Shown one piece after another: positions 3,615 through 47,305 of a stretch of 47,305 bases of DNA (position 1 is the stretch's first letter; each line of letters opens with the position of its first letter). The notes below the pieces were generated by a model. That model ran no database searches, was not told the DNA's origin, and was given only the letters and a program-made list of their open reading frames with translations. A program made the translations under genes and the position numbers. The stretch covers positions 1-47,305 of the forward strand of contig JADGPR010000018.1 in NCBI GenBank assembly GCA_017882335.1, given 5' to 3'. Origin of the DNA: Bacteroidales bacterium (GTDB taxonomy: Bacteria > Bacteroidota > Bacteroidia > Bacteroidales > FEN-979).

Positions 3615-5240
3615 ATGCTATCCATCCAGATTGCTGACCAACCGCTTGACCTGTCCGATGATTTTTCGGTTTCTCTGAACCTCAAATCTCCTCTGTTCAA
3701 CGATGTCGGGGATTATTCCTTTCCCTTCAAAGTTCCTTCTACGAATAGGAATATGGCAATCCTGGGATGGAAAAACCGAATGGCATCAACCCGCAGCATT
3801 TACGAAAGTTTCGATGGAAGCATCCGCTGGAACGGAATGGTCCTTTATGCAGGCCAGATACTGATCAAGACAGCCTCAGATAAGACATTTGAAGGTACTC
3901 TTTACATCAACAAGGGCAACTTCAACTATGAAGTGAAGGACCTTCTTTTAAACCGGGTGGATTTCGGGATGAAAAACTTTGAAAGTGATGACCAGGGCAT
4001 GGATTACTTCAACTGGTCTTTGACACATTTTTATCCTGAAAGCGATTTTTCCATGCCTCAGATCACCAACCTTTACTTCTATGATCCCCAGGCGACCAAC
4101 CCTGAGCTTCTGGCCTACAATCTCATCTTCCCGGACGGAAAGCTTCATAAGAACACAACGGACGGCCAGCACCGTACGATCCTTGTTCCGTTTCTCTACC
4201 TGAAATTTGTTCTCAATAAACTTGCTGAAAATTTCGGCTACCGGCTGCAGGACGAATTCTTTACTTCCAGCACCGAGCTTTCCCGACTGGTGATCTACCA
4301 TTCGGTCAATATCAGCGAGGTTTTGTTTGGGCTGCAGCAAATCTATTACTGCCGCTTTTTGCCTAAGGTGAAGGTTAGCGAATTCATTTCCGGTCTTGAA
4401 AAATGGTTCAATTGCAGCTTTCACGTTGATTCACGTCAAAGAGTAGTTAAGATCGTTAGCAACAAAGAAGTGTTGCTTCACTCCGAAGTCATTGAGTTTT
4501 CAAAGCATGTTCTTTCTATCTCCCAGGAGATCCCTGATCCGATATCCGGTTTCCGGTTCCTTTTGGGACCCGATTCCGGGGATAAGGTCTACCAAGATCA
4601 ATTGGATCAGGAAAAAGGAATCACCGACTATATCAAAGGCGCAGTCCAGAGCTTTTCAGATATCCCACCGTATCCCTTTACCTTGCTGGGTGACATCTAT
4701 TATATCGTTGATACGGACTCCTGGTGGCAGCTGGGAGTCGTCAGTTTTTTGATCCAATGGATACAATTGCCTATTGGGCCTTCATTGACAGATAAGTTTT
4801 TCTATAAGTGGGGAGATGATAAGAACAAGTACGAAACTGTATTTTCCTCTCTATCGGATAAGTATGGGATGGTAAGTTGCGGGAACCTGGGAGCAGACAA
4901 CCAGAAGGTCACCCCAAGGTTGTTTTGGGTTGGGATGTACGGTGGTTATGGTTCACCTTACCTGCTTCGCGGACTTGCCTATGATACAAATTTCTCTTTG
5001 CGTTACCCTGGCCCAAATGGGCTATTCAACCTCTATTGGAAAGACTGGGTAAGCTGGATGATGAAGGATCGAAAGAGCGTCAAGATCGAAAAACAGATGG
5101 ATTTCATAGAGTTGAAATCGATTGACTTTACCAAGCGCTACTGCATTAACGGCATCAATTATCTGATCAGTGAGGTAGCTGTTACCCTGAATAAATCCTC
5201 GATCAAATCATCTCAGTTAAAATGCTTCACAGCTCCCTGA
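3615..5240 (+). CDS. Phage tail/baseplate structural protein (distal-tail-like)
   Basis: A 541-residue protein encoded immediately after the tape measure gene. The N-terminal 100 residues are beta-rich (SIQIADQPLDLSDDFSVSLN, then a segment with DVGDYSFPFKVPSTNRN), a pattern I associate with proteins at the distal tail or baseplate of Bacteroidota siphophages. There is no signal peptide and no enzymatic motif. Gene order (tape measure, then this protein, then a second large beta-rich protein, then fibres) fits distal tail protein followed by hub or tail-associated protein. The precise role cannot be fixed from sequence alone. Confidence 0.6.
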   Translation: MLSIQIADQPLDLSDDFSVSLNLKSPLFNDVGDYSFPFKVPSTNRNMAILGWKNRMASTRSIYESFDGSIRWNGMVLYAGQILIKTASDKTFEGTLYINKGNFNYEVKDLLLNRVDFGMKNFESDDQGMDYFNWSLTHFYPESDFSMPQITNLYFYDPQATNPELLAYNLIFPDGKLHKNTTDGQHRTILVPFLYLKFVLNKLAENFGYRLQDEFFTSSTELSRLVIYHSVNISEVLFGLQQIYYCRFLPKVKVSEFISGLEKWFNCSFHVDSRQRVVKIVSNKEVLLHSEVIEFSKHVLSISQEIPDPISGFRFLLGPDSGDKVYQDQLDQEKGITDYIKGAVQSFSDIPPYPFTLLGDIYYIVDTDSWWQLGVVSFLIQWIQLPIGPSLTDKFFYKWGDDKNKYETVFSSLSDKYGMVSCGNLGADNQKVTPRLFWVGMYGGYGSPYLLRGLAYDTNFSLRYPGPNGLFNLYWKDWVSWMMKDRKSVKIEKQMDFIELKSIDFTKRYCINGINYLISEVAVTLNKSSIKSSQLKCFTAP

Positions 5241-5283
5241 TGCTGTCCTTTATTTCATCCTGATCTCATGGTACTATTGCACC

Positions 5284-6957
5284 ATGATCGACATCACGGA
5301 AACTCCCAATCTCATTTCCTTTGCCGGGAATCCTGTCATTTTTGAAGCCTGCTCTGATAATTACCAGACCTCGTTAGGCGCTCGTGCTTACTTCGAAGTG
5401 GTAGTTTCCGGAATTGATACCAATGTCGGTCATACGTTTCAGCTTCAGTTTACAGGGAAAACCCTGGTCTTTCAAACTGCGGGTATTACCGGTTTTGACG
5501 GTTTGTTGTTTGGGGTTGCTTATCCCGGGCAGACATTCAATGATTTCGCCTATAATATCTATAAGTGTTTCATTGAAAATTACGATATCCAGAAATATTT
5601 CAACGTAACGCTGGATCCGGTAGGAACAAGTCAGCGAAAGATCATTCTCCAGGCAAAGCAGCGCGGAGCCAATTGTTCTGTTGTATTGTCGAATGTTGGA
5701 GTCTCAGGGGTAGGGCAGGGGGTAAACACTTCCGGAACAGATGATGTTTACTTAGATTACTTCAGTATCCTTTGCCTGATACGCGATACGCTGAATAGTC
5801 CAATAGGGGAGGATATTAAGCCGGCTGATTTTATCGGCAGTGCAAGGTTCGATATATCGGATTACCTATTGTCAAAGTTTGCTTCCTGGGAGATACCGCG
5901 TTTTGAATTCCCTGAGCTTGCAGGCAATGTCAAAGTTCATGGATGGGATTACCTTTTGAAGTACCGTGTATCGTTTGCTGAAAGCATCGCCGGTAAAGTC
6001 AGGGGCCTGCAATCGGACGGTTGGAAATACGTCCTGGCCGGAGGATTGAACCATGAACTCCTGACTTCTCTCAATGAGAAGTACCTGGAGTATTTCTCTA
6101 TCCCGGCAAATAAACTCAAATTCCTTTCGTGGCTTCCAACGACAAAGTATTCCCGCTCAGGAGTCATGGAGAAACTGTTTTTCCTGTTCCAGGAAAATCC
6201 TTCGGGAATTCATTACCGGCTGGTTGTGGTCATCACTTTCACCGACGGTTCCCACAAGGTGGTCAACGCGACCGAACAGGCAACGTTTGCTGCCTTTTCG
6301 ATACTGGAATTCAAAGTCGGGTATGACCACCTTGACCTGGTGAATGCCCAATACGGCAAAACGGTCCAGTTGTGGGAAGTTTTTTTAATGGACAGTAATG
6401 ATGATTTGCTTTCCGAGCGACGGATATTCTATAATGATACCCGGGTTTTTGAGAATGAAAAGATCTTTTTTTACCGCAATTCCTTCTCTGCCTATGACAC
6501 ATTCCGGTTTATAGGCAAATCAGAATTAAACCTGGAATATGAACGATTGATCGGCTCCACCGTAAGGGAAGAGAAGTATTCCTTCTTTAATGCACCTTCC
6601 AAACAGTTCAGTGCAAGCGAAACAGAAAGCTGCAAAGCCAATTCCGGGTGGATATCTCTTGAAGAAAAGAATTGCCTCAGGGAGCTTCTTTTGACTACTG
6701 AAGCTTATGAGCAGATCGGGAAAGAGCTGTTCCAGATAGTAGTCAAATCGGCAAAAGTAACTCCATTCCTAAAGGACGGAGAATACCTGTACAACCTGGA
6801 AATCGAATACGATCGCTCTTATCAGAACTCTTTCTTTTCAGTTCATACTGCGGAAAGTTCGGCCAATTCGATATTGGTACCGCAGCCGCTGACCTGGGAT
6901 AACATAGAAGTAAGTTTTGACGACATGGAAATAACATTTGACCAGATAGAATTTTAA
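5284..6957 (+). CDS. Phage tail protein, hub or tail-associated (hypothetical)
   Basis: A 557-residue beta-rich protein on the + strand, 43 bases after the preceding tail gene and two bases before the next one. It has many aromatic residues and short strands, no signal peptide, no transmembrane segment and no recognisable catalytic motif. The N-terminal third (about 1-170) resembles a structural beta-sandwich; the central part (about 225-440) includes a region with LFFLFQENPSG. The C-terminus ends in a short acidic tail with repeated WDNIEVSFDDMEITFDQIEF. Position between the distal-tail-like protein and the fibre genes supports a baseplate or tail tip role, but I do not recognise the family. 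Confidence 0.55.
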   Translation: MIDITETPNLISFAGNPVIFEACSDNYQTSLGARAYFEVVVSGIDTNVGHTFQLQFTGKTLVFQTAGITGFDGLLFGVAYPGQTFNDFAYNIYKCFIENYDIQKYFNVTLDPVGTSQRKIILQAKQRGANCSVVLSNVGVSGVGQGVNTSGTDDVYLDYFSILCLIRDTLNSPIGEDIKPADFIGSARFDISDYLLSKFASWEIPRFEFPELAGNVKVHGWDYLLKYRVSFAESIAGKVRGLQSDGWKYVLAGGLNHELLTSLNEKYLEYFSIPANKLKFLSWLPTTKYSRSGVMEKLFFLFQENPSGIHYRLVVVITFTDGSHKVVNATEQATFAAFSILEFKVGYDHLDLVNAQYGKTVQLWEVFLMDSNDDLLSERRIFYNDTRVFENEKIFFYRNSFSAYDTFRFIGKSELNLEYERLIGSTVREEKYSFFNAPSKQFSASETESCKANSGWISLEEKNCLRELLLTTEAYEQIGKELFQIVVKSAKVTPFLKDGEYLYNLEIEYDRSYQNSFFSVHTAESSANSILVPQPLTWDNIEVSFDDMEITFDQIEF

Positions 6958-38680: not shown

Positions 38681-40132
38681 ATGAACATACACTTTAAAAG
38701 CATAAGCAACATAATAGTCATTACTGTTTTTCTTTGGCAGGCATCAGCGTTTCATGGTAGGGCACAAGTTCGAAATGTCGCTATAACTATTCACCTGCAT
38801 GGTGTTTACGAAAGTAAAATAAGCCTTTTGTCCCTGTCGGGTAATAAAATCTTTAAATCCAGTGCCGAGGTTCAGGGAATAAAAAATGGTGAAACAACCA
38901 GGTTTTCGGTTTCAAAAGAAAACCTGCCAGGGGAGTTTGTTTTGCGGTTCGATTACAAAGAAAAAGAATCAAGCACAGCTTACCCTTCGGAGAAGTATAT
39001 TTTCATCAATGATCAGGATCTGGAACTATGGATTAGTCCGATTTATTGTAATAATATCGATAGCACCTGGTTTCAGAAAGGTGAAAGAGAAAATGCGACA
39101 TTTGTGCAATTCTCAAAAGAAAATGGCAGGCAAAAAGAAAAACTAGGTTTGTTGCAGAATTTTTTAATGAACTATGATGATACAGAATCACAGTTTTACC
39201 AGCAAGGGATTAAAGAATATGAACAACGGCGGCAATCCTATAACAAATGGCTTACAACCCGGACCCTACAGGATAAAGCGCTGTTTGTAAGCAGGCAGTA
39301 TTGTTTTCAATATATGCCGGAAATATCATGGAAAGGTGACGAAACTGACCGGATCAAAAACCTGATAAATCACTATTTTGACGGCATGGATTTTAAAGAT
39401 TCCTTGCTGATAAAAACATCCGACCTGAACAAATGGATGGACAGTTACGTCAATCTCTATGGACAACTATCCACTACAGCAGCCTTGCGCGATTCCTTAT
39501 TCCCTGAAGCCGGAATAACCGCGATTGAGGAAGCCAGGCAAGGCCACCCGCTGGTTTATGGCTGGATGGTTGATTATTTCTACCGGGGTTACGAAACCAA
39601 CGGCATAACGGCAGGAATGAAAATACTGGAACCTTATATGAATGACCCGAACTGTCTTACCTCGAAAAGGCAGGAAATCGCCCGAAGGCTGCAAGGAATG
39701 GAAACATTGGTTGCAGGAAGCAGAGCACCAAATATTATCATGAAAGATATTGATGGTAATCAATTTGAACTGAATACACTCGAAACCCAATGCAAATACA
39801 TCCTTGTGCTCTTCTGGTCGGCGGGTTGCAGCCATTGTGTTGAAATGGTAAATAGTTTATACCCCTGGCAGCAGCAAATGGAAGTGCAGCAGAAAATTAA
39901 GGTTGTATCCATCAGCCTGGATGAAACTGAAACGGATATAAAAGCCTGGGAGCAGAAGATAGGGGGATTGAAGGGATGGAAACACTTGCATGAAGCAGAA
40001 GGTGTCCGCAGCAAAGTAGCCGGCGATTACTTTGTATTAGCCACTCCGGTAATGGTTTTGCTTGATGCCAGAACAAAGGAAATCATTGCCACACCAAATA
40101 CCCTAAATGATTTATTGACTGCCATTCAGTAA
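38681..40132 (+). CDS. TlpA-like exported thiol oxidoreductase
   Basis: 483 residues with a signal peptide (about 1-28, ending GRAQ). The N-terminal domain (about 30-130, beta-rich, GVYESKISLLSLSGNKIFKS) and central helical region (about 135-345) follow the pattern of Bacteroidota thioredoxin-fold proteins with a DUF4369/DUF5106-like front. The C-terminal thioredoxin domain (about 348-483) has LVLFWSAGCSHCVEMVNSLY with the redox pair C-S-H-C and VVSISLDETE, then the cis-Pro segment VLATPVMVLLD. It should act in the periplasm as a thiol-disulfide reductant or maturation factor. It is the last ordinary gene before the lectin-fold cluster. Confidence 0.85.
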   Translation: MNIHFKSISNIIVITVFLWQASAFHGRAQVRNVAITIHLHGVYESKISLLSLSGNKIFKSSAEVQGIKNGETTRFSVSKENLPGEFVLRFDYKEKESSTAYPSEKYIFINDQDLELWISPIYCNNIDSTWFQKGERENATFVQFSKENGRQKEKLGLLQNFLMNYDDTESQFYQQGIKEYEQRRQSYNKWLTTRTLQDKALFVSRQYCFQYMPEISWKGDETDRIKNLINHYFDGMDFKDSLLIKTSDLNKWMDSYVNLYGQLSTTAALRDSLFPEAGITAIEEARQGHPLVYGWMVDYFYRGYETNGITAGMKILEPYMNDPNCLTSKRQEIARRLQGMETLVAGSRAPNIIMKDIDGNQFELNTLETQCKYILVLFWSAGCSHCVEMVNSLYPWQQQMEVQQKIKVVSISLDETETDIKAWEQKIGGLKGWKHLHEAEGVRSKVAGDYFVLATPVMVLLDARTKEIIATPNTLNDLLTAIQ

Positions 40133-40361: not shown

Positions 40362-42341
40362 ATGAAGAAGTTTTTTACTTTCTTTTTCGCACTGGTACTG
40401 GCTACCATGCTTTGCGCCAACAACATTACCATCAGCAACCTGAGCCTTACAGGCAAAAACACAACGGATCACTATACGCTGGTACAGTTCGACATTTCCT
40501 GGGAAAACTCATTCCGGGTGAGTATAGGTCCCGCTAACTGGGATGCCGCATGGGTGTTTGTAAAGTACCGCGTGCCTGTGTCAAACGGAGGCGACGGGCT
40601 GTGGAAGCATACAAAGCTCAACAATACCGGCCAAACTGTACCAAGTGGCAGCGTTATAGAGATTGGGTTGCTCACTCCCGGCACAGCCTTTAATGCCACC
40701 TTCAACCTTGGCCTTGGCGCATTTATTTACCGTAGCGCCGATGGTACAGGAACGTTTTCCAAAACCGGGGTGCAACTTCGCTGGAACTATGGCGCAAATA
40801 GTGTTGCCGATGATGCTAATGTGGAAATACAGATTTATGCAATCGAGATGGTATATGTACCGCAGGGAAGTTTTTATGTGGGCAGTGGCGGAACAGAAAG
40901 CGGTGCTTTTCACAAATACCCTACTACAACCAATCCTTACCAGGTTACTAGTGAAGGACAAACCACCGTAGGAACTGCAACCGATAACCTTTATTACCCA
41001 AATCCCTCCGGTAATAGCGGAGACCAGGCAGGTCCAATCCCTGCCGCTTTCCCAAAAGGTTACAATGCTTTTTACTGCATGAAATACGAAATAAGCCAGC
41101 AGGAATATGTGGATTTTCTGAATAGCCTTTCTTACACTCAGCAAGCGACCCGAACAGAAATAGCAATACCGCCTAGTTCAGGCGCAGGAACTTTTCTTTA
41201 CAACACTAACCGAAACAAAATAAAAATAAGTACATCCGGAACGAACAACACAGTGCCTGCCATTTATGCTACTGATTACCCTTATGTAGCCTGCAACTAT
41301 TTAAGCTGGGCCGATTTGGATGCCTATCTTGATTGGAGTGGTTTGCGCCCGATGACCGAGCTTGAGTTTGAAAAAGCATGTCGGGGAACCGGATCAGCAG
41401 TACCTGATGAATATGCGTGGGGTAGCACAAGCATTATAGCAGCCGCCGGCATTAGTAACAGCGGCTTAAACAACGAAACGGCAAGCAATTCCGGAGCAAA
41501 TGCTTGCTATGCTAATAGTGGTTCCGGAGGCCCTATACGGGTTGGGGCATTTACTAAATCTTCCTCTACCCGCGTAACAGCCGGCGCCACATACTATGGC
41601 ATCATGGAGATGAGCGGTAATCTATGGGAGCGCACTGTTACAGTGGGCAATACCACAGGAAGAGCTTTTACAGGCGCCCATGGCGATGGAAACTTAACAG
41701 GTGATGCAAATCCTGCTGCGTGGCCGGGAACTGACGCTGTAGGAGCCGGCTTCCGGGGCGGCAATTGGGATGGCGTTGCTACGCATTCGCGAGTTTCCGA
41801 CCGCGAATTCACGGCGTTTGCCTGGGTTACTCGTATGCTCGATTATGGTGGTCGTGGGGTTCGTGGAATTTCTCCACCCTATATTGGCCAAAGTTATGGA
41901 GGTGGCATTATTTTCTATATTGATGGTACTGGACAACATGGATTGATTGCCGCACCAAGCGACCAAGTGGCGGCACAATGGGGTTGTATTTATACAACAA
42001 TATCAGGAGCAGATGGTACAGCAATAGGAACTGGAAATCAGAATACCATAGATATTATTGCTGGCTGTGCAACAGCAGGAATAGCAGCAAGATTATGTGG
42101 TGATTTAGATTTGGGTGGCTATAGCGACTGGTATTTACCAAGTAAAGATGAGCTGTCCCAGCTTTATATTAATAGGGTTGTGGTTGGAGGTTTTTGTAAC
42201 GGGTGTTACTATTATAGTTCCACCGAGAGCGCTGACTGGTTGGCGTGGGTCGTATACTTCTACACTGGCTGGGACGGTGGCGGGCTGCATACTATGCCTA
42301 AGGACGTCACAATAAGTGTGCGTGCTGTTCGGGCTTTTTAA
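40362..42341 (+). CDS. Exported SUMF1/FGE-like plus DUF1566 protein (candidate variable-surface protein A)
   Basis: 659 residues from ATG 40362, where a signal peptide starts (KKFFTFFFALVLATMLCANN). An N-terminal beta domain (about 20-150) shared with the next gene is followed by an FGE/SUMF1-like C-type-lectin-fold domain (about 160-502; YVPQGSFYVGSGGTESGAFH, FYCMKYEISQQEYVDFLN, LRPMTELEFEKACRGTG, MEMSGNLWERTV, GFRGGNW, GGRGVRG). The catalytic cysteines of true FGE are absent from the block after GFRGG, so it is probably a binding domain. The C-terminus (about 506-659) is a DUF1566 domain (GYSDWYLPSKDELSQLYINR, YYYSSTES, VRAVRAF). Segments 41763-41864 and about 42199-42316 show retroelement-like variable-block patterns. 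Confidence 0.83.
   Translation: MKKFFTFFFALVLATMLCANNITISNLSLTGKNTTDHYTLVQFDISWENSFRVSIGPANWDAAWVFVKYRVPVSNGGDGLWKHTKLNNTGQTVPSGSVIEIGLLTPGTAFNATFNLGLGAFIYRSADGTGTFSKTGVQLRWNYGANSVADDANVEIQIYAIEMVYVPQGSFYVGSGGTESGAFHKYPTTTNPYQVTSEGQTTVGTATDNLYYPNPSGNSGDQAGPIPAAFPKGYNAFYCMKYEISQQEYVDFLNSLSYTQQATRTEIAIPPSSGAGTFLYNTNRNKIKISTSGTNNTVPAIYATDYPYVACNYLSWADLDAYLDWSGLRPMTELEFEKACRGTGSAVPDEYAWGSTSIIAAAGISNSGLNNETASNSGANACYANSGSGGPIRVGAFTKSSSTRVTAGATYYGIMEMSGNLWERTVTVGNTTGRAFTGAHGDGNLTGDANPAAWPGTDAVGAGFRGGNWDGVATHSRVSDREFTAFAWVTRMLDYGGRGVRGISPPYIGQSYGGGIIFYIDGTGQHGLIAAPSDQVAAQWGCIYTTISGADGTAIGTGNQNTIDIIAGCATAGIAARLCGDLDLGGYSDWYLPSKDELSQLYINRVVVGGFCNGCYYYSSTESADWLAWVVYFYTGWDGGGLHTMPKDVTISVRAVRAF
41763..41864 (+). 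other. Candidate variable region A1 (FGE-like domain)
   Basis: 34 codons aligned without gaps to 43965-44066 of the next gene. By hand, 20 residues differ and 14 are shared. Of the 20 differing codons, 13 keep the same third base. Of the 14 shared codons, 12 are identical at DNA level. It ends in the G-rich common stretch GGTCGTGGGGTTCGT (41850-41864). Confidence 0.6.
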
Positions 42342-42359
42342 CAATTTAATAATATCGCG
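42199..42359 (+). other. Candidate variable region A2 (DUF1566 domain) with conserved 3' flank
   Basis: The last 40 codons of protein A differ strongly from those of protein B up to the shared VRAVRAF end. Many variable codons end in C (gac, gtc, tac, ttc, ggc), each reachable from AAC by changing A bases. 42317-42359 matches 46325-46367 at 39 of 43 bases, 18 of which lie beyond the stop codon. Confidence 0.55.
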
Positions 42360-42452
42360 TACCGACCAACAGGAGCTCATGAGCGATAGCGAATAACTGG
42401 TCGAATTTTTCTTTGAGAACATGAATAATAATGGAGTTTCAACAAAAAAACC

Positions 42453-45400
42453 ATGATAAATAACCTTTCAAAACCAGCACTCAGCTTACCAAGCAAAACC
42501 TTTGCCTCAGCTGTTTTAGTATTTATTTTATTAACCGCCGGCGCTTACGCCAACAACATTGCCGTAACCAATATAAAGCTCACCGGCCAAAACATCAGCG
42601 GCCAATATACGCTGGTTCAGTTCGACATCTCATGGGAAAACTCCTGGCGAACTTCCTCAGCGCCATACAACTACGATGCCGCCTGGGTTTTTGTGAAATA
42701 CCGTATACCGGTGACCAGCGGAGGCGATGGGTTGTGGAAGCATGCCTGGTTTAACGATGCAGGGCATACCGCCCCTTCAGGCTGCACAGTAGATATTGGC
42801 CTGCACGCACCCAGCGGGTATTTCAACCCCACCACCAACCCGGGCCTGGGCGCTTTTATTTACCGCGATGCCAATGGCACAGGCGCGTTTACTAAAACCG
42901 GGGTACAACTTCGCTGGAACTATGGCGCAAATAGTGTTGCCGATAATGCCGTGGTTGATATACAGGTTTTTGCCATCGAAATGGTCTATGTGCCTCAGGG
43001 GAACTTTCAGTTAGGTTCAGGAGGCACTGAAGAAGGACATTTCTATAAATATTCAACAACTACAGATACGTATTCGGTAAGTACTGAAGCTGCTATTACA
43101 ATTGGTACTGCAACCGGTAATCTCTATTATCCAAGCGGCACGAATACTGGCGACCGGCTAGGTCCTATCCCGGCCGCTTTCCCAAAAGGCTACAACGCTT
43201 TTTACTGCATGAAATACGAAATAAGCCAGCAGGAGTATGTGGATTTTTTAAATACGCTTACTTACATACAGCAAGAAACTCGAACGGTTAATGCGCCATC
43301 TTCTGCTGCTGGTACCGCTGCCTTAATTAACGCATTTCGAAATGGAATAGATATTCAAACACCGGGAGTGATCTCAACTACTCCGGCAGTGTATGCGTGT
43401 AACTTAAATGGGAATGTAACTTATGGCGAATCCGTTGACGGCCAATGGATTGCCTGCAACTATTTAAGCTGGACCGATTTGGAGGCCTATCTTGATTGGA
43501 GTGGCTTGCGCCCGATGACAGAATTAGAATTTGAAAAATCCTGCCGGGGTACCTTACCGGCAGTAGCCAACGAATATGCCTGGGGCACGACGGGTATTGC
43601 CGGCAGCGCATATACATTAAGTAATAGTGGAGCAAACAATGAAGTCATAGCTACCAACTACAGCACAACAGTTGGTAATGCTGCATATCTTCCAACTATT
43701 CCCGCCGCTAGTATTAATGGACCTTTGCGAGTAGGAATATTCGCAGGTACGAGTGGTAACACAGGCAGAATAACAGCAGGCGCCGCGTATTACGGCATTA
43801 TGGAGATGAGCGGCAATCTGTGGGAGCGTTCTGTAACGGTGGGCAATGCCGCAGGAAGACTATTTACCAGCACGAATGGTAATGGTTTGCTCAATGCCAC
43901 GGGCAATGCCGATGTCACCACCTGGCCCGGAACATCTATCACGGGCTCTGGTTTCCGGGGCGGCGTTTGGAACAACAATAATACGTACTTGCCAGTTTCC
44001 TGCCGCTACCAAGCGTCGGGCGCCTACGATACTCGCCTCAGCTATTGTGGCGGTCGTGGGGTTCGTTCGCCTTTTAGTTGCGGTTCTTCCTTCACAATTA
44101 CCCATACTATCGGCACTGTATCGCCTGAAACAAAGTCAGTAAACTATGGTACTGTAATAACAAGTCTTTCAGGCGCCAGTAAATGCTGGATAACCCAAAA
44201 CTTAGGTTCAACTAATCAGGCAACTTCAGCAACCGATGCCACCGATGCCGCTGCAGGTTGGTATTGGCAGTTTAACCGCATGCAAGGGTACAAGCACGAT
44301 GGTACAACACGTACCCCCAATAGTGTCTGGATAACTTCTATTTCTGAAAACAGCAACTGGCTTACAGCTAACGATCCCTGCACCATAGAGCTAGGTGCAG
44401 GTTGGCGTATCCCTACCCATACAGAATGGGCTAATGCGGATGCAACCGGAGCTTGGGCTAATTACACCGACACTTACAATTCGGTGTTAAAACTCCATGC
44501 TGCCGGTTTCCTGAACTACAGCAATGGTTCGCTGTCCAGTCGCGGCTCACTCGGCTTCTACTGGAATAGTACGCAGAACGATGCCAATACTTTTTACGGC
44601 TGGTACCTGTTCTTCAGTAGTGGAACCAGCCTCAACGACTACAGATACAAGGCTTGCGGCCAGCCGCTCCGTTGCCTCAAAGACTGTACAGAACCACCAA
44701 CCACTGCCGATGCAGGCCCTGATATAATTCTGGCAGCTGGCGTAAGTACTTATACATTAGCGGGAAATACACCTACGATAGGAACGGGCTTATGGTCGGT
44801 TATATCCGGCACAGCCACCATAACCACCCCGGGTTCTCCCACTTCGGGAGTAACAGGATTAGCCTCCTCAGGTACAGCAAAGCTGCGATGGACAATTTCT
44901 AATTCGCCTTTCACCCCTTCAACAGACGATGTAATTATAATTACTATTGCCACCCCTTGTATATGGAATGGATCCGATCAATTTACTTTCACCCACACGA
45001 TAGGCACTGTAGCCCCTGAAACAAAAACCGTTACTTATGGTCAAACACAAACTTCCCTTTCAGGTGCCAGTAAATGCTGGATAACCCAAAACTTAGGTGC
45101 AAGTCACCAGGCATGTTCTGCAGACGATGCTACTGAACCTTCTGCGGGTTGGTATTGGCAGTTTAACCACATGCAAGGGTACAAGCACGATGGTACAACA
45201 CGTACCCCCAATAATGTCTGGATAACTTCTATTTCTGAAAACAGCAACTGGCTTGCAGCTAACGATCCCTGCACCATAGAGCTTGGTGCAGGTTGGCGTA
45301 TCCCTGCCAGTACGGAATGGTTATCTGCGGATGGTGCTCCACAAAACTGGATTAATTACATTGACACTTACAATTCGGTGTTAAAACTCCATGCTGCAGG

Positions 45401-46349
45401 CCTCCTGTATTACCCCGATGGTGTGCTCAACAACATTGGCACCTACGGCGGCTACTGGAGCAGTACGCAGAATAGTAATGCTTATGGCAGAAACTGGGGC
45501 ATAAGCAGTAGCTATAGCACAGAGAATTACAACTATAAGGCTAACGGCTTTTCGCTCCGTTGCCTCAAAGACGAAGTCGTCGCCACCGTCACCACCACTG
45601 CAGTATCTGCAATAACCTCTACCACCGCAACAAGCGGCGGTAATGTAACCGCAAATGGCGGCGCAACCGTTACAGCTCGTGGAGTTTGCTGGAACACTTC
45701 TCCAAATCCCACAACCGCAAACAGCTATACTACCAACGGCAGCGGAACCGGTGTGTTTGTAAGCGATTTAACCAGCCTCACCCCGATTACCCTATATTAT
45801 GTCAGGGCGTATGCAACAAACAACGTTGGAACAGCATATGGCAATGAAGTGAGTTTTACAACAGCACTTGTAATAGGTGATAGCTATCAAGGCGGCAAAG
45901 TAGCTTACATTTTACAACCTACAGACCCTGGTTACGTGGCAGGAGAAACACATGGATTAATAGCCGCACCAAGCGACCAAAGTTCAAGTTCAGGTGCAGT
46001 ATGGGGTTGTTATATGACAACAATATCGGGTGCAGATGGAACAGCAATTGGCACAGGCAATCAGAACACAATTGACATCATGGCCGGCTGTTCAACAGCA
46101 GGAATAGCAGCAAGACTTTGTGGCGATTTAGTATTGGGTGGTTATAGCGACTGGTATTTACCTTCAAAAGATGAGTTGGAAAAAATTTGCCTGAATAGGG
46201 CTGCAATTGGCGGTTTTACTGATGGTGCTGGATATTGGAGCTCAAGCGAAGTAAGTAACTACTATGCGTGGTTTCAATACCCATACGGCTACCAGTCCAA
46301 CAACTCGAAGGAATTCCATTTCTATGTGCGTGCAGTCCGGGCTTTTTAA
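42453..46349 (+). CDS. Exported multi-domain lectin-fold protein B (FGE-like, two FISUMP, FN3-like, DUF1566)
   Basis: 1298 residues. Signal peptide at about 1-34 (TFASAVLVFILLTAGAYA). Domains in order: N-terminal beta domain shared with protein A (about 35-170); FGE/SUMF1-like domain (about 175-538, GNLWERSVTV, GFRGGVW, GGRGVRS); FISUMP-type domain 1 (about 546-744); Ig/PKD-like linker (about 749-831, TADAGPDIILAAGVSTYTLA); FISUMP domain 2 (about 840-1040); an FN3-like domain (about 1043-1138); and DUF1566 (about 1140-1298, VRAVRAF end). The two FISUMP copies (WCWITQNLG-type core KCWITQNLG, GAGWRIP, LRCLKD end) are about 97 % identical over 160 bases, with few synonymous changes, yet diverge in their final 43-45 codons. 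Likely surface-displayed binding protein. Confidence 0.82.
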   Translation: MINNLSKPALSLPSKTFASAVLVFILLTAGAYANNIAVTNIKLTGQNISGQYTLVQFDISWENSWRTSSAPYNYDAAWVFVKYRIPVTSGGDGLWKHAWFNDAGHTAPSGCTVDIGLHAPSGYFNPTTNPGLGAFIYRDANGTGAFTKTGVQLRWNYGANSVADNAVVDIQVFAIEMVYVPQGNFQLGSGGTEEGHFYKYSTTTDTYSVSTEAAITIGTATGNLYYPSGTNTGDRLGPIPAAFPKGYNAFYCMKYEISQQEYVDFLNTLTYIQQETRTVNAPSSAAGTAALINAFRNGIDIQTPGVISTTPAVYACNLNGNVTYGESVDGQWIACNYLSWTDLEAYLDWSGLRPMTELEFEKSCRGTLPAVANEYAWGTTGIAGSAYTLSNSGANNEVIATNYSTTVGNAAYLPTIPAASINGPLRVGIFAGTSGNTGRITAGAAYYGIMEMSGNLWERSVTVGNAAGRLFTSTNGNGLLNATGNADVTTWPGTSITGSGFRGGVWNNNNTYLPVSCRYQASGAYDTRLSYCGGRGVRSPFSCGSSFTITHTIGTVSPETKSVNYGTVITSLSGASKCWITQNLGSTNQATSATDATDAAAGWYWQFNRMQGYKHDGTTRTPNSVWITSISENSNWLTANDPCTIELGAGWRIPTHTEWANADATGAWANYTDTYNSVLKLHAAGFLNYSNGSLSSRGSLGFYWNSTQNDANTFYGWYLFFSSGTSLNDYRYKACGQPLRCLKDCTEPPTTADAGPDIILAAGVSTYTLAGNTPTIGTGLWSVISGTATITTPGSPTSGVTGLASSGTAKLRWTISNSPFTPSTDDVIIITIATPCIWNGSDQFTFTHTIGTVAPETKTVTYGQTQTSLSGASKCWITQNLGASHQACSADDATEPSAGWYWQFNHMQGYKHDGTTRTPNNVWITSISENSNWLAANDPCTIELGAGWRIPASTEWLSADGAPQNWINYIDTYNSVLKLHAAGLLYYPDGVLNNIGTYGGYWSSTQNSNAYGRNWGISSSYSTENYNYKANGFSLRCLKDEVVATVTTTAVSAITSTTATSGGNVTANGGATVTARGVCWNTSPNPTTANSYTTNGSGTGVFVSDLTSLTPITLYYVRAYATNNVGTAYGNEVSFTTALVIGDSYQGGKVAYILQPTDPGYVAGETHGLIAAPSDQSSSSGAVWGCYMTTISGADGTAIGTGNQNTIDIMAGCSTAGIAARLCGDLVLGGYSDWYLPSKDELEKICLNRAAIGGFTDGAGYWSSSEVSNYYAWFQYPYGYQSNNSKEFHFYVRAVRAF
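43965..44066 (+). other. Candidate variable region B1 (FGE-like domain)
   Basis: Counterpart of 41763-41864. It retains a run of AAC-AAC-AAT-AAT codons at 43971-43982, where protein A has gat-ggc-gtt-gct, the change expected when adenines of a template are replaced. It ends in the same G-rich stretch at 44052-44066. Confidence 0.6.
44550..44684 (+). other. Candidate variable region B2 (FISUMP copy 1)
   Basis: 45 codons from the residue before GFYWNSTQ to RCLKD. Invariant codons against copy 2 include tac-tgg, agt-acg-cag, tac/tat-aag-gct and the final 18 bases ctccgttgcctcaaagac. The codons between them differ almost everywhere, with small length differences. Confidence 0.55.
45444..45572 (+). 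other. Candidate variable region B3 (FISUMP copy 2)
   Basis: 43 codons matching copy 1 in frame-keeping anchors only (GYWSSTQ, YKA-x-G, LRCLKD). Asn codons (aat, aac) are frequent at variable positions, for example AAC in KANG where copy 1 has TGC. Confidence 0.55.
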
Positions 46350-46367
46350 CAACTTAATAGTATCGCG
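46208..46367 (+). other. Candidate variable region B4 (DUF1566) with conserved 3' flank
   Basis: The codons between the GYWSSSE anchor and VRAVRAF are rich in NNC codons (tac, ggc, tcc, aac, aac, ttc). The end of the gene and 18 bases after its stop match gene A. Both flanks share AACTGGTCGAATTTT further on (42395-42409 and 46368-46382). Gene A has an extra 35-base insert between, holding the palindrome GCTCATGAGC (42375-42384). Confidence 0.55.
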
Positions 46368-46525
46368 AACTGGTCGAATTTTATCTGGAAAAAGAAATTG
46401 TAAACAGTAAAAACTATAGAACAAAGAAAAATATAAAATTTAAGATACGTTTCAAATGTCGCCTATTGTAGCGGATTATTATAAGTTTTGGCTTTGGCGC
46501 CTTAACCTGGACTTTGATCAATTGA

Positions 46526-46564: not shown

Positions 46565-47305
46565 ATGAAAAAACTTACGCTGTATTTTATGTTGCTGTTG
46601 GCATTACCAACAAATTTGGTTGCACAATACACTGGCGCCAATGGCCGGGGAGATATATCAGGAGCAGGAAACGGCTCTTTACTTAATGGTATAGATGGCC
46701 TTTACGCCGGTGGTAATGGCCGGGGAGATTTTACCCTCTTTTATGCATATTGTACCAACCCAACCAATGGCGGCACGATATCATCAGATCAAGCAGGTTG
46801 CACCCCTTTTGACCCGGCTTTGATCACCAGCACGGCACTGCCTGCCAGCTATACCGGAACCCTGGATTATAAATGGCAGAAATCCATTACAAGCAGCAGC
46901 GCTGGCTTTTCGGATATTGGCAGTAGCAATGCGGCTACTTACGATCCGCCAGCCGGTCTGACAGCAACCACTTGGTATAAACGCCTTGCGAGAGTTAATT
47001 GCATGCCTGACTGGACATGGGCCAAGGAATCGAATGTTGTTCAGATGACGGTTAATCCGTTACCGACTTTAACAGGAGCTGCTCAGGCAGCGGCGGTTTG
47101 CGAAGAAATGGGAGCAACGATCAATTTAACAGGATTGCTGGCAAGCAGCACCTTCACGGTGGACTATAAAATTAACACTGTAGCGCAAACATCAGTAACG
47201 GGAGTTGTTTCCAATGGTTCAGGAGCAGGGAGTTTCACCTCGGCCGCTCTGACGGCAGCCAATAACGGTCAGATCCTTCAGATCACAGGCATCACCGTCA
47301 CCACT
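46565..47305 (+). CDS. Large exported adhesin-like protein, N-terminal part (cut by window edge)
   Basis: 247 codons to the window end with no stop. Signal peptide at about 1-23 (KKLTLYFMLLLALPTNLVAQ). A short repeat follows: YTGANGRGDISGAGNGS, then YAGGNGRGDFTLFYA, both with GGNGRGD-like cores. Next comes a domain with CTPFDPALITSTALPASYTG and YDPPAGLTATTWYKR, and from about residue 180 an Ig-like repeat (PLPTLTGAAQAAAVCEEMGA). This is the design of very large Bacteroidota surface proteins carrying many Ig-like repeats and usually a type IX sorting domain, which would lie outside the window. Confidence 0.75.
   Translation, partial: MKKLTLYFMLLLALPTNLVAQYTGANGRGDISGAGNGSLLNGIDGLYAGGNGRGDFTLFYAYCTNPTNGGTISSDQAGCTPFDPALITSTALPASYTGTLDYKWQKSITSSSAGFSDIGSSNAATYDPPAGLTATTWYKRLARVNCMPDWTWAKESNVVQMTVNPLPTLTGAAQAAAVCEEMGATINLTGLLASSTFTVDYKINTVAQTSVTGVVSNGSGAGSFTSAALTAANNGQILQITGITVTT

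Follow-up and report, generated by a model that had tools for sequence, protein, structure and literature searches.

Do the variable blocks in two neighbouring genes of a Bacteroidales bacterium go back to a diversity-generating retroelement (DGR), and if so, are they still being rewritten by one? The question is raised by contig JADGPR010000018.1 (assembly GCA_017882335.1), which was analysed over its whole length of 47,305 nucleotides and is called the window here; it is the entire contig C23 of an assembly of 3.13 Mb in 123 contigs that is 96.7% complete. Two adjacent genes of the window encode A and B, probably surface proteins, each with an FGE-sulfatase domain and with an Lcl_C domain at the C-terminal end; in protein B two FISUMP domains lie between them. 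A first-pass annotation, made from the DNA sequence alone, had recognised the mark of DGR adenine mutagenesis at the end of both FGE domains. Our reading, to which we assign a probability of about 0.72, is that both variable regions (VRs) were once written by a DGR in FGE (C-type-lectin-like) domains, that the mutator was subsequently lost, and that the blocks would now represent remnant targets and not a working DGR.

The paired blocks in proteins A and B

Protein A (positions 40362 to 42341, plus strand, an open reading frame (ORF) of 659 amino acids counted from the ATG) comprises an N-terminal region, the FGE-sulfatase domain (PF03781, E 2.6e-13, above the cut-off) and the C-terminal Lcl_C domain (DUF1566; PF07603, E 7.1e-7, below its cut-off). 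Protein B (42453 to 46349, plus strand, an ORF of 1298 amino acids) matches both families above their cut-offs; of its two FISUMP domains (TIGR02145), one was detected as a single profile stretch below the cut-off and the second copy by alignment. The blocks in question, VR1 in protein A (41751 to 41864) and VR2 in protein B (43953 to 44066, both on the plus strand), form the ends of the FGE domains and are internal to the proteins.

Both blocks translate without stops. Over the 34 codons originally described they align without gaps, and the earlier counts by hand proved exact. In the 38-codon block given by the above coordinates, the residues differ at 20 codons, with the third base retained in 13 of them, and the identical codon is used for 16 of the 18 residues in common. 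The four leading codons are the same in VR1 and VR2, hence the 12 of 14 identical codons in the shorter version. In the remaining aligned parts of the two genes the third base is kept in 57 of 163 changed codons and the same codon is used for 171 of 297 shared residues. The difference between the block and the rest is significant for third bases (p 0.014) as well as for shared codons (p 0.011; two-sided Fisher tests). When 38-codon windows were slid along the flanks, 31 of 423 contained as many residue changes as the block, and none of the 423 matched it in both residue changes and kept third bases. The pattern of the block thus exceeds the local background, by a modest margin as long as no template is taken into account and much more strongly once it is measured against the G054 template described below.

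In formylglycine-generating enzymes, the active-site cysteine pair is located in the segment after the RGG motif. VR1 contains no cysteine and VR2 contains two. The profile matches of the window proteins to solved FGE chains stop short of the block, and an AlphaFold2 model based on an alignment of 26 rows reached a mean pLDDT of 48.

A template in a related genome predicts the changed bases

A search of 100 genomes revealed homologues of the FGE domain in 23, the own genome counted. In G054, which belongs to the same order and to another family, a bAvd gene (PF22296, E 3.4e-14), a reverse transcriptase (RT) with the motifs IGNLTSQ and YMDD, and a template repeat (TR) come after the homologue. 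The VR of G054 itself differs from this TR at 23 of 36 adenines (A sites) and at none of the 78 other positions (non-A sites). Compared with the same TR, VR1 is changed at 24 of 36 A sites and 11 of 78 non-A sites (Fisher p 3.8e-8) and VR2 at 20 of 36 and 8 of 78 (p 5.4e-7). These A-site changes lie at codon positions 1 and 2 in 22 of 24 cases for VR1 and 18 of 20 for VR2, as do 33 of the 36 TR adenines. The gene flanks are devoid of an adenine bias (p 0.29, 0.40 and 0.34); between G054 and protein A, the changed share in the flanks amounts to 0.38 for A, 0.41 for C, 0.27 for G and 0.40 for T (p 0.29).

With the G054 TR as DNA query, matches at E<=0.01 were obtained in 19 of 393 genomes of the order, the own genome and G054 counted. 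The best matches outside G054 were VR2 (E 1.6e-18), next a block in genome G286 and next VR1. In an ungapped scan of 107 homologous loci (83 scored; several loci are the same record), the VR of G054 was the only one with fewer non-A mismatches to the TR than VR1 and VR2. It is the low non-A mismatch, and not variation at adenines alone, which distinguishes the window blocks from other homologues. The third-base differences that had been left unexplained are real: among the 35 non-A third positions, VR1 departs from the G054 TR at 9 and VR2 at 4. They would be accounted for if the genome had a slightly deviating template of its own, or if the blocks drifted once the mutator was lost.

VR1 and VR2 thus show the adenine-focused differences of a DGR target, while full agreement at non-A sites is interrupted by the 11 and 8 exceptions relative to a template from another family. 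A C-terminal VR followed by an invariant 3' end is not found: in G054, the agreement of VR and TR extends across the stop codon and past it, and VR1 and VR2 instead continue into further domains. The proposed mark of adenine mutagenesis is supported by the TR, RT and bAvd beside the homologous target of G054 and by the complete cassette described below, and we consider it very likely that VR1 and VR2 are DGR-written. In G054 (L077, L260, L261 and L262) at least four template/VR pairs were seen, one of the FGE and three of the Lcl_C type, together with eight bAvd-family matches, some of them under the cut-off.

A second cassette and its probable loss in relatives

Among 78 named loci (the best of 193) found with an FGE-domain profile, many of them on short contigs, a linked template is present in two, namely G054 (L148) and L167. 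The order in L167 is target, RT (again with IGNLTSQ and YMDD), bAvd, TR and a gene with GGNGRGD repeats. Its VR differs from its own TR at 21 of 35 A sites and 0 of 79 non-A sites, and this TR differs from that of G054 at 19 of 114 bases. The L167 record is labelled as a Pseudomonadota metagenome-assembled genome (MAG); its target gene is 92% identical to a gene of a Bacteroidales MAG (L106/L169).

Locus L175, from another MAG, is identical to L167 at 890 of 900 upstream bases (98.9%), and the two VRs differ at 18 of 35 A sites and at none of the 79 others, a difference best read as diversification between close relatives. In L175, L106 (G286) and L163, the block is joined directly to the sequence located behind the TR in L167, with neither RT nor bAvd at this position. 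In L167, VR and TR constitute direct repeats flanking RT and bAvd; a single recombination event between the two would therefore excise the cassette, with one hybrid block remaining, suggesting that the cassettes of L106, L163 and L175 may have been lost by this step. The remaining blocks differ from the L167 TR at 22 of 35 A sites and 0 of 79 non-A sites in L175, at 11 and 3 in L106, and at 10 and 3 in L163. L106 and L163 are 97.6% identical over 1999 aligned bases, and their blocks differ at 4 of 35 A sites and 2 of 79 other sites, a low difference as would be expected once rewriting ends.

A gene of the GGNGRGD-repeat type follows the TR in the complete L167 DGR (3934-5679) and comes straight after the target in L106 and L175. 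In the window, the ORF downstream of protein B (46565 to 47305, plus strand) likewise encodes G[GA]NGRGD repeats and is truncated at the contig end. JAPLFI, an Ignavibacteriae MAG, contains at least eight copies of the FGE family on separate contigs (L136, L147, L153, L168, L178, L180, L198 and L204). Relatives were also sought in viral contigs, where 74 stretches fit a pattern and none codes for one.

Reverse transcriptase, template and bAvd in the own genome

The first-pass annotation had proposed a search for a DGR RT and for a near-copy of the blocks with adenines at the variable sites. Both were found beside the homologous target in relatives (G054 and L167) and neither in the own assembly (G000), so that half of what it had named as evidence against its claim was indeed obtained. 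A search of the assembly for PF00078 gave nothing at E<=0.001, and one with the G054 RT gave nothing at E<=1e-5. Queried at the DNA level with VR1, VR2, the G054 TR and the FISUMP TR of G025, the own genome yielded the window blocks and otherwise short matches at chance level; VR1 and VR2 returned each other and no donor paralogue.

Of RT, template and bAvd, which are expected of a working DGR, only a bAvd gene was detected in the own genome (G000:C105:1167-1466, PF22296 E 1.4e-18, above the cut-off, open frame). It adjoins a FISUMP target on contig C105, away from the window genes: the contig starts partway through a target with a DGR-like FISUMP block at its end, and bAvd comes next (L215, 959-1610). 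No RT comes after this bAvd on C105; instead there is a 99-base stretch (1512-1610) with 86% identity to window positions 40025-40123, the end of the thioredoxin-like gene preceding protein A. Among the FISUMP blocks fetched with a template, that of the G038 cassette is the nearest in sequence; in this cassette, bAvd is followed by template and RT. Contig C75 (L246) carries two neighbouring FISUMP ends on the minus strand (8278 and 9800) that have a DNA scaffold in common with C105; the C105 block and one of the C75 blocks differ at 28 of 126 bases (11, 13 and 4 at codon positions 1, 2 and 3). In gapped alignments to the G038 TR, made with A-tolerant scoring alone, the three blocks of C105 and C75 are changed at 29 of 61 A and 23 of 131 non-A sites, 36 of 61 and 22 of 131, and 33 of 61 and 20 of 131, respectively. 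Weak bAvd matches on contigs C81 and C14 are under the family cut-off, and the scanned stretches of both contigs contain no template.

In G002, a genome of the same genus, a decayed fragment of a DGR-type RT was found (L124, G002:C213, 4542-4694, minus strand), which comprises 51 residues, contains an in-frame stop and is 71% identical to the RT of the FISUMP DGR of G030. Taken together, the C105 bAvd with its target and this remnant indicate that the genus had DGRs, at least one of which decayed. Another RT of G002, on C300, was rejected as part of a DGR, its ORFs, which we take to resemble a maturase, being read as a group II intron fragment.

FISUMP and Lcl_C domains as DGR targets

FISUMP domains are the targets of TR/VR pairs with 0 to 2 non-A changes in G025, G030, G038 (own family), G088 and G243, and Lcl_C domains are the targets of such pairs in G054 (three), G371 and G282. 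On contig G025:C169 (L255, 185-6998) there are two RTs: a FISUMP template is accompanied by bAvd and RT, and the second RT by an Lcl_C-type template after an apparent truncated bAvd start. The aligner with A-tolerant scoring favours mismatches at adenines; symmetric scoring was added for the window blocks, and the counts for remote VRs, like those for C105 and C75, come from A-tolerant scoring only.

FIS1, the VR-like and internal end of the first FISUMP domain of protein B (44497 to 44685, plus strand), matches the FISUMP TR of G025, a genome of the same family, with a BLAST E of 1.1e-28 and differs from it at 23 of 56 A sites and 21 of 127 non-A sites (p 4.6e-4); symmetric scoring gave 22 of 56 and 22 of 127 (p 1.6e-3). 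For LclA, the VR-like end of the Lcl_C domain of protein A (42208 to 42344, plus strand, the alignment reaching 3 bases beyond the stop), the symmetric comparison with the Lcl_C-type TR of G025 resulted in 29 of 48 and 21 of 77 (p 2.4e-4). The view that FISUMP and Lcl_C ends are VRs is supported by these alignments for FIS1 and LclA. FIS2, the end of the second FISUMP domain (45391 to 45572, plus strand), is homologous to DGR templates, and LclB, the Lcl_C end of protein B (46207 to 46352, plus strand), to DGR targets; as DGR variable regions neither is supported, both failing the adenine test (p 0.48 and 0.15). Compared with a TR of G054, LclB is changed at 32 of 59 A sites and 19 of 84 non-A sites under A-tolerant scoring, which favours the signature. 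The 3' flanks of the two Lcl_C ends (window 42341-42409 and 46349-46382) share one piece of 19 bases (17 identical) and another of 15 bases, which are separated by 35 extra bases after protein A.

Places similar to the G025 FISUMP TR occur in 22 of 43 genomes of the family, the own genome counted, with up to 18 in one genome (at most 19 candidates were scored per genome). The list of FISUMP ends based on a motif misses diverged ends and gives no total count. Few of these places are fresh. In G030, where all 14 remote matches were measured, the cassette VR has 0 of 126 non-A changes and the remote VR L300 has 2 of 126, while the share of changed non-A sites ranges from 7 to 32% at the remaining 13 remote places; one of the places of G030, L301, lies in an FGE and FISUMP homologue of the window proteins (9 of 125). 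In G036 one fresh place (2 of 126) was found among 7 measured of 14 matches, in G025 none among 10 measured places, the cassette's own set aside, and in G002 11 places have 6 to 26% non-A changes. The fresh remote VRs of G030 and G036 are on another contig than the template.

Five VRs of G025 were compared as a set. Three of them, on three contigs (L330, L331 and L332), depart from the majority sequence at only 2, 2 and 5 of 127 non-A sites, and from the known G025 TR at 20 to 22; the other two VRs have 28 and 12 non-A differences from the majority. G025 therefore probably once had a second FISUMP template. Since this shared scaffold is unlike the known TR, non-A divergence reflects partly age and partly template.

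Weighing the alternatives

Several results weigh against a DGR origin followed by loss of the mutator. VR1 and VR2 have 11 and 8 non-A differences from the G054 TR, which is a template from another family of the order, whereas both complete FGE VR/TR pairs have none. The fit to the L167 TR is poorer still (VR1, 24 of 35 A and 21 of 79 non-A sites; VR2, 21 of 35 and 19 of 79). A slightly differing own template, or a mutator located in the missing part of the assembly, is possible. In addition, 11 homologues without a linked DGR share part of the adenine bias, because the same residue positions vary (p 5e-4 to 0.75 from ungapped counts, which overstate non-A changes in L018 and L042, where block lengths differ). 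FIS2 shows no adenine signature (20 of 56 A and 43 of 126 non-A sites, p about 0.5), and that of LclB is not significant (21 of 45 and 27 of 76, symmetric scoring, Lcl_C-type TR of G025). Non-A changes by themselves do not give the drift time, as they can also stem from a second template. Finally, decay does not differ significantly between internal and C-terminal VRs (n=9 and 34, medians 0.20 and 0.16, p 0.06); this comparison comprised 46 rows, of which three (L313, L329 and L337) were dropped since their alignments stop before template position 170, and one of the nine internal rows, L339, is so classed merely because the fetched stretch ended.

The explanation that survives best beside ours is that the blocks are still being rewritten, with an RT and a template of the organism lying in assembly gaps and acting in trans on VR1 and VR2. 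At 96.7% completeness in 123 contigs there is room for them: C105 starts in a DGR-like target, C75 ends in one, and the contig of the window ends 3.2 kb past VR2. The own bAvd gene is present with an open frame, and the single remote VRs with 2 of 126 non-A changes in G030 and G036 make action at a distance plausible in the family. Nevertheless, two RT searches of the own assembly were negative, and even the best template found leaves 11 non-A sites of VR1 and 8 of VR2 mismatched. Furthermore, a comparison of VR1 with VR2 reveals differences at 15 of 78 non-A sites, which is beyond what a single shared template permits, and being internal both blocks lack the stop and the 3' flank common to VR and TR of G054. 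We therefore regard ongoing rewriting in trans as unlikely and, given a DGR origin, VR1 and VR2 as probably frozen now.

It is much less probable that no retroelement was involved and that the binding pocket of the paralogues diverged normally under diversifying selection. Homologues in Bacteroidota and, according to record titles, in other phyla do vary at the same residues; however, third bases and shared codons are kept more often in the block than in the flanks, the changed bases are predicted by the template of another genome, and the flanks are free of such a bias. Gene conversion or domain swapping as the source of the codon mosaic can be dismissed with slightly more assurance still, for although the two paralogues are neighbours, and repeated FISUMP and Lcl_C copies exist both within protein B and at other places, such exchange would not limit the differences to individual positions at which a separate template has an adenine, and the own-genome DNA searches with VR1 and VR2 revealed no donor.

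Discussion

Under the reading of a DGR origin with later loss of the mutator, an ancestral DGR would have copied a template RNA with random bases at adenines, and the cDNA would have replaced the 3' end of the domain. The written domains would then have persisted inside longer FGE/FISUMP/Lcl_C proteins. The mutator would have been lost, in relatives apparently through VR-TR recombination that removed RT and Avd, and the blocks may now drift slowly as fixed putative binding surfaces.

FGE-sulfatase, DUF1566 (Lcl_C) and Fib_succ_major domains are described as targets of DGRs of the human microbiome (PMC4159848). The window proteins share these three target domains and changes at template adenines with that set; unlike the targets presented there, in which one domain ends its own protein, protein B combines three kinds and protein A two. 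Remnant DGR targets as such are already known, since they were reported from Treponema denticola isolates without RT and TR (PMC4891356). As in the cases described there, the FGE-sulfatase VRs of the window depart from a relative's TR mostly at adenines, neither RT nor TR was found, several targets exist, and losses of the cassette were inferred. Unlike those cases, the VRs of the window are internal and followed by further domains of DGR-target type, and the cassette loss in relatives can be read at the level of bases as a VR/TR junction.

Remote DGR targets have been reported from cyanobacteria (PMC7517822), trans action together with multi-VR targets from Thiohalocapsa (PMC10907252), and several VRs in one ORF for 31 of 271 multi-VR DGRs (PMC6642488). 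Dispersed variable proteins, plausible trans action and several VRs per target are features that our family has in common with these systems as they are described in those reports. Different from them are the up to 18 places counted per genome for one FISUMP template, few of which are fresh among those measured (1 of 14 remote places in G030, 1 of 7 in G036 and 0 of 10 in G025). The C-terminal position of the VR is given as near-universal by Roux et al., who state that their own approach would miss remote targets (PMC8144416). Proteins with three stacked types of DGR target and cassette deletion at a VR/TR junction were not met in the parts of the open-licence DGR literature covered here, in which no search was aimed at either.

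More tentatively, and with doubt prevailing, DGRs might serve as domain factories in this group: diversified C-terminal domains would be copied into FGE/FISUMP/Lcl_C stacks from different templates, the mutator would then be deleted by VR-TR recombination, and a fixed combinatorial binding repertoire would be kept, with non-A changes partly recording the time since the last rewriting.

Overall, the window illustrates that DGR-written sequence may be recognised via the template of a relative in a genome without detectable RT or template, and surveys confined to the neighbourhood of RTs would miss such genes. The related loci offer a readable route of DGR loss, by deletion between VR and TR, and the window proteins belong to a family that combines domains of three DGR-target types. 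It thereby becomes testable whether targeted hypermutation in these bacteria serves ongoing change alone, or may also serve to build a stable repertoire.

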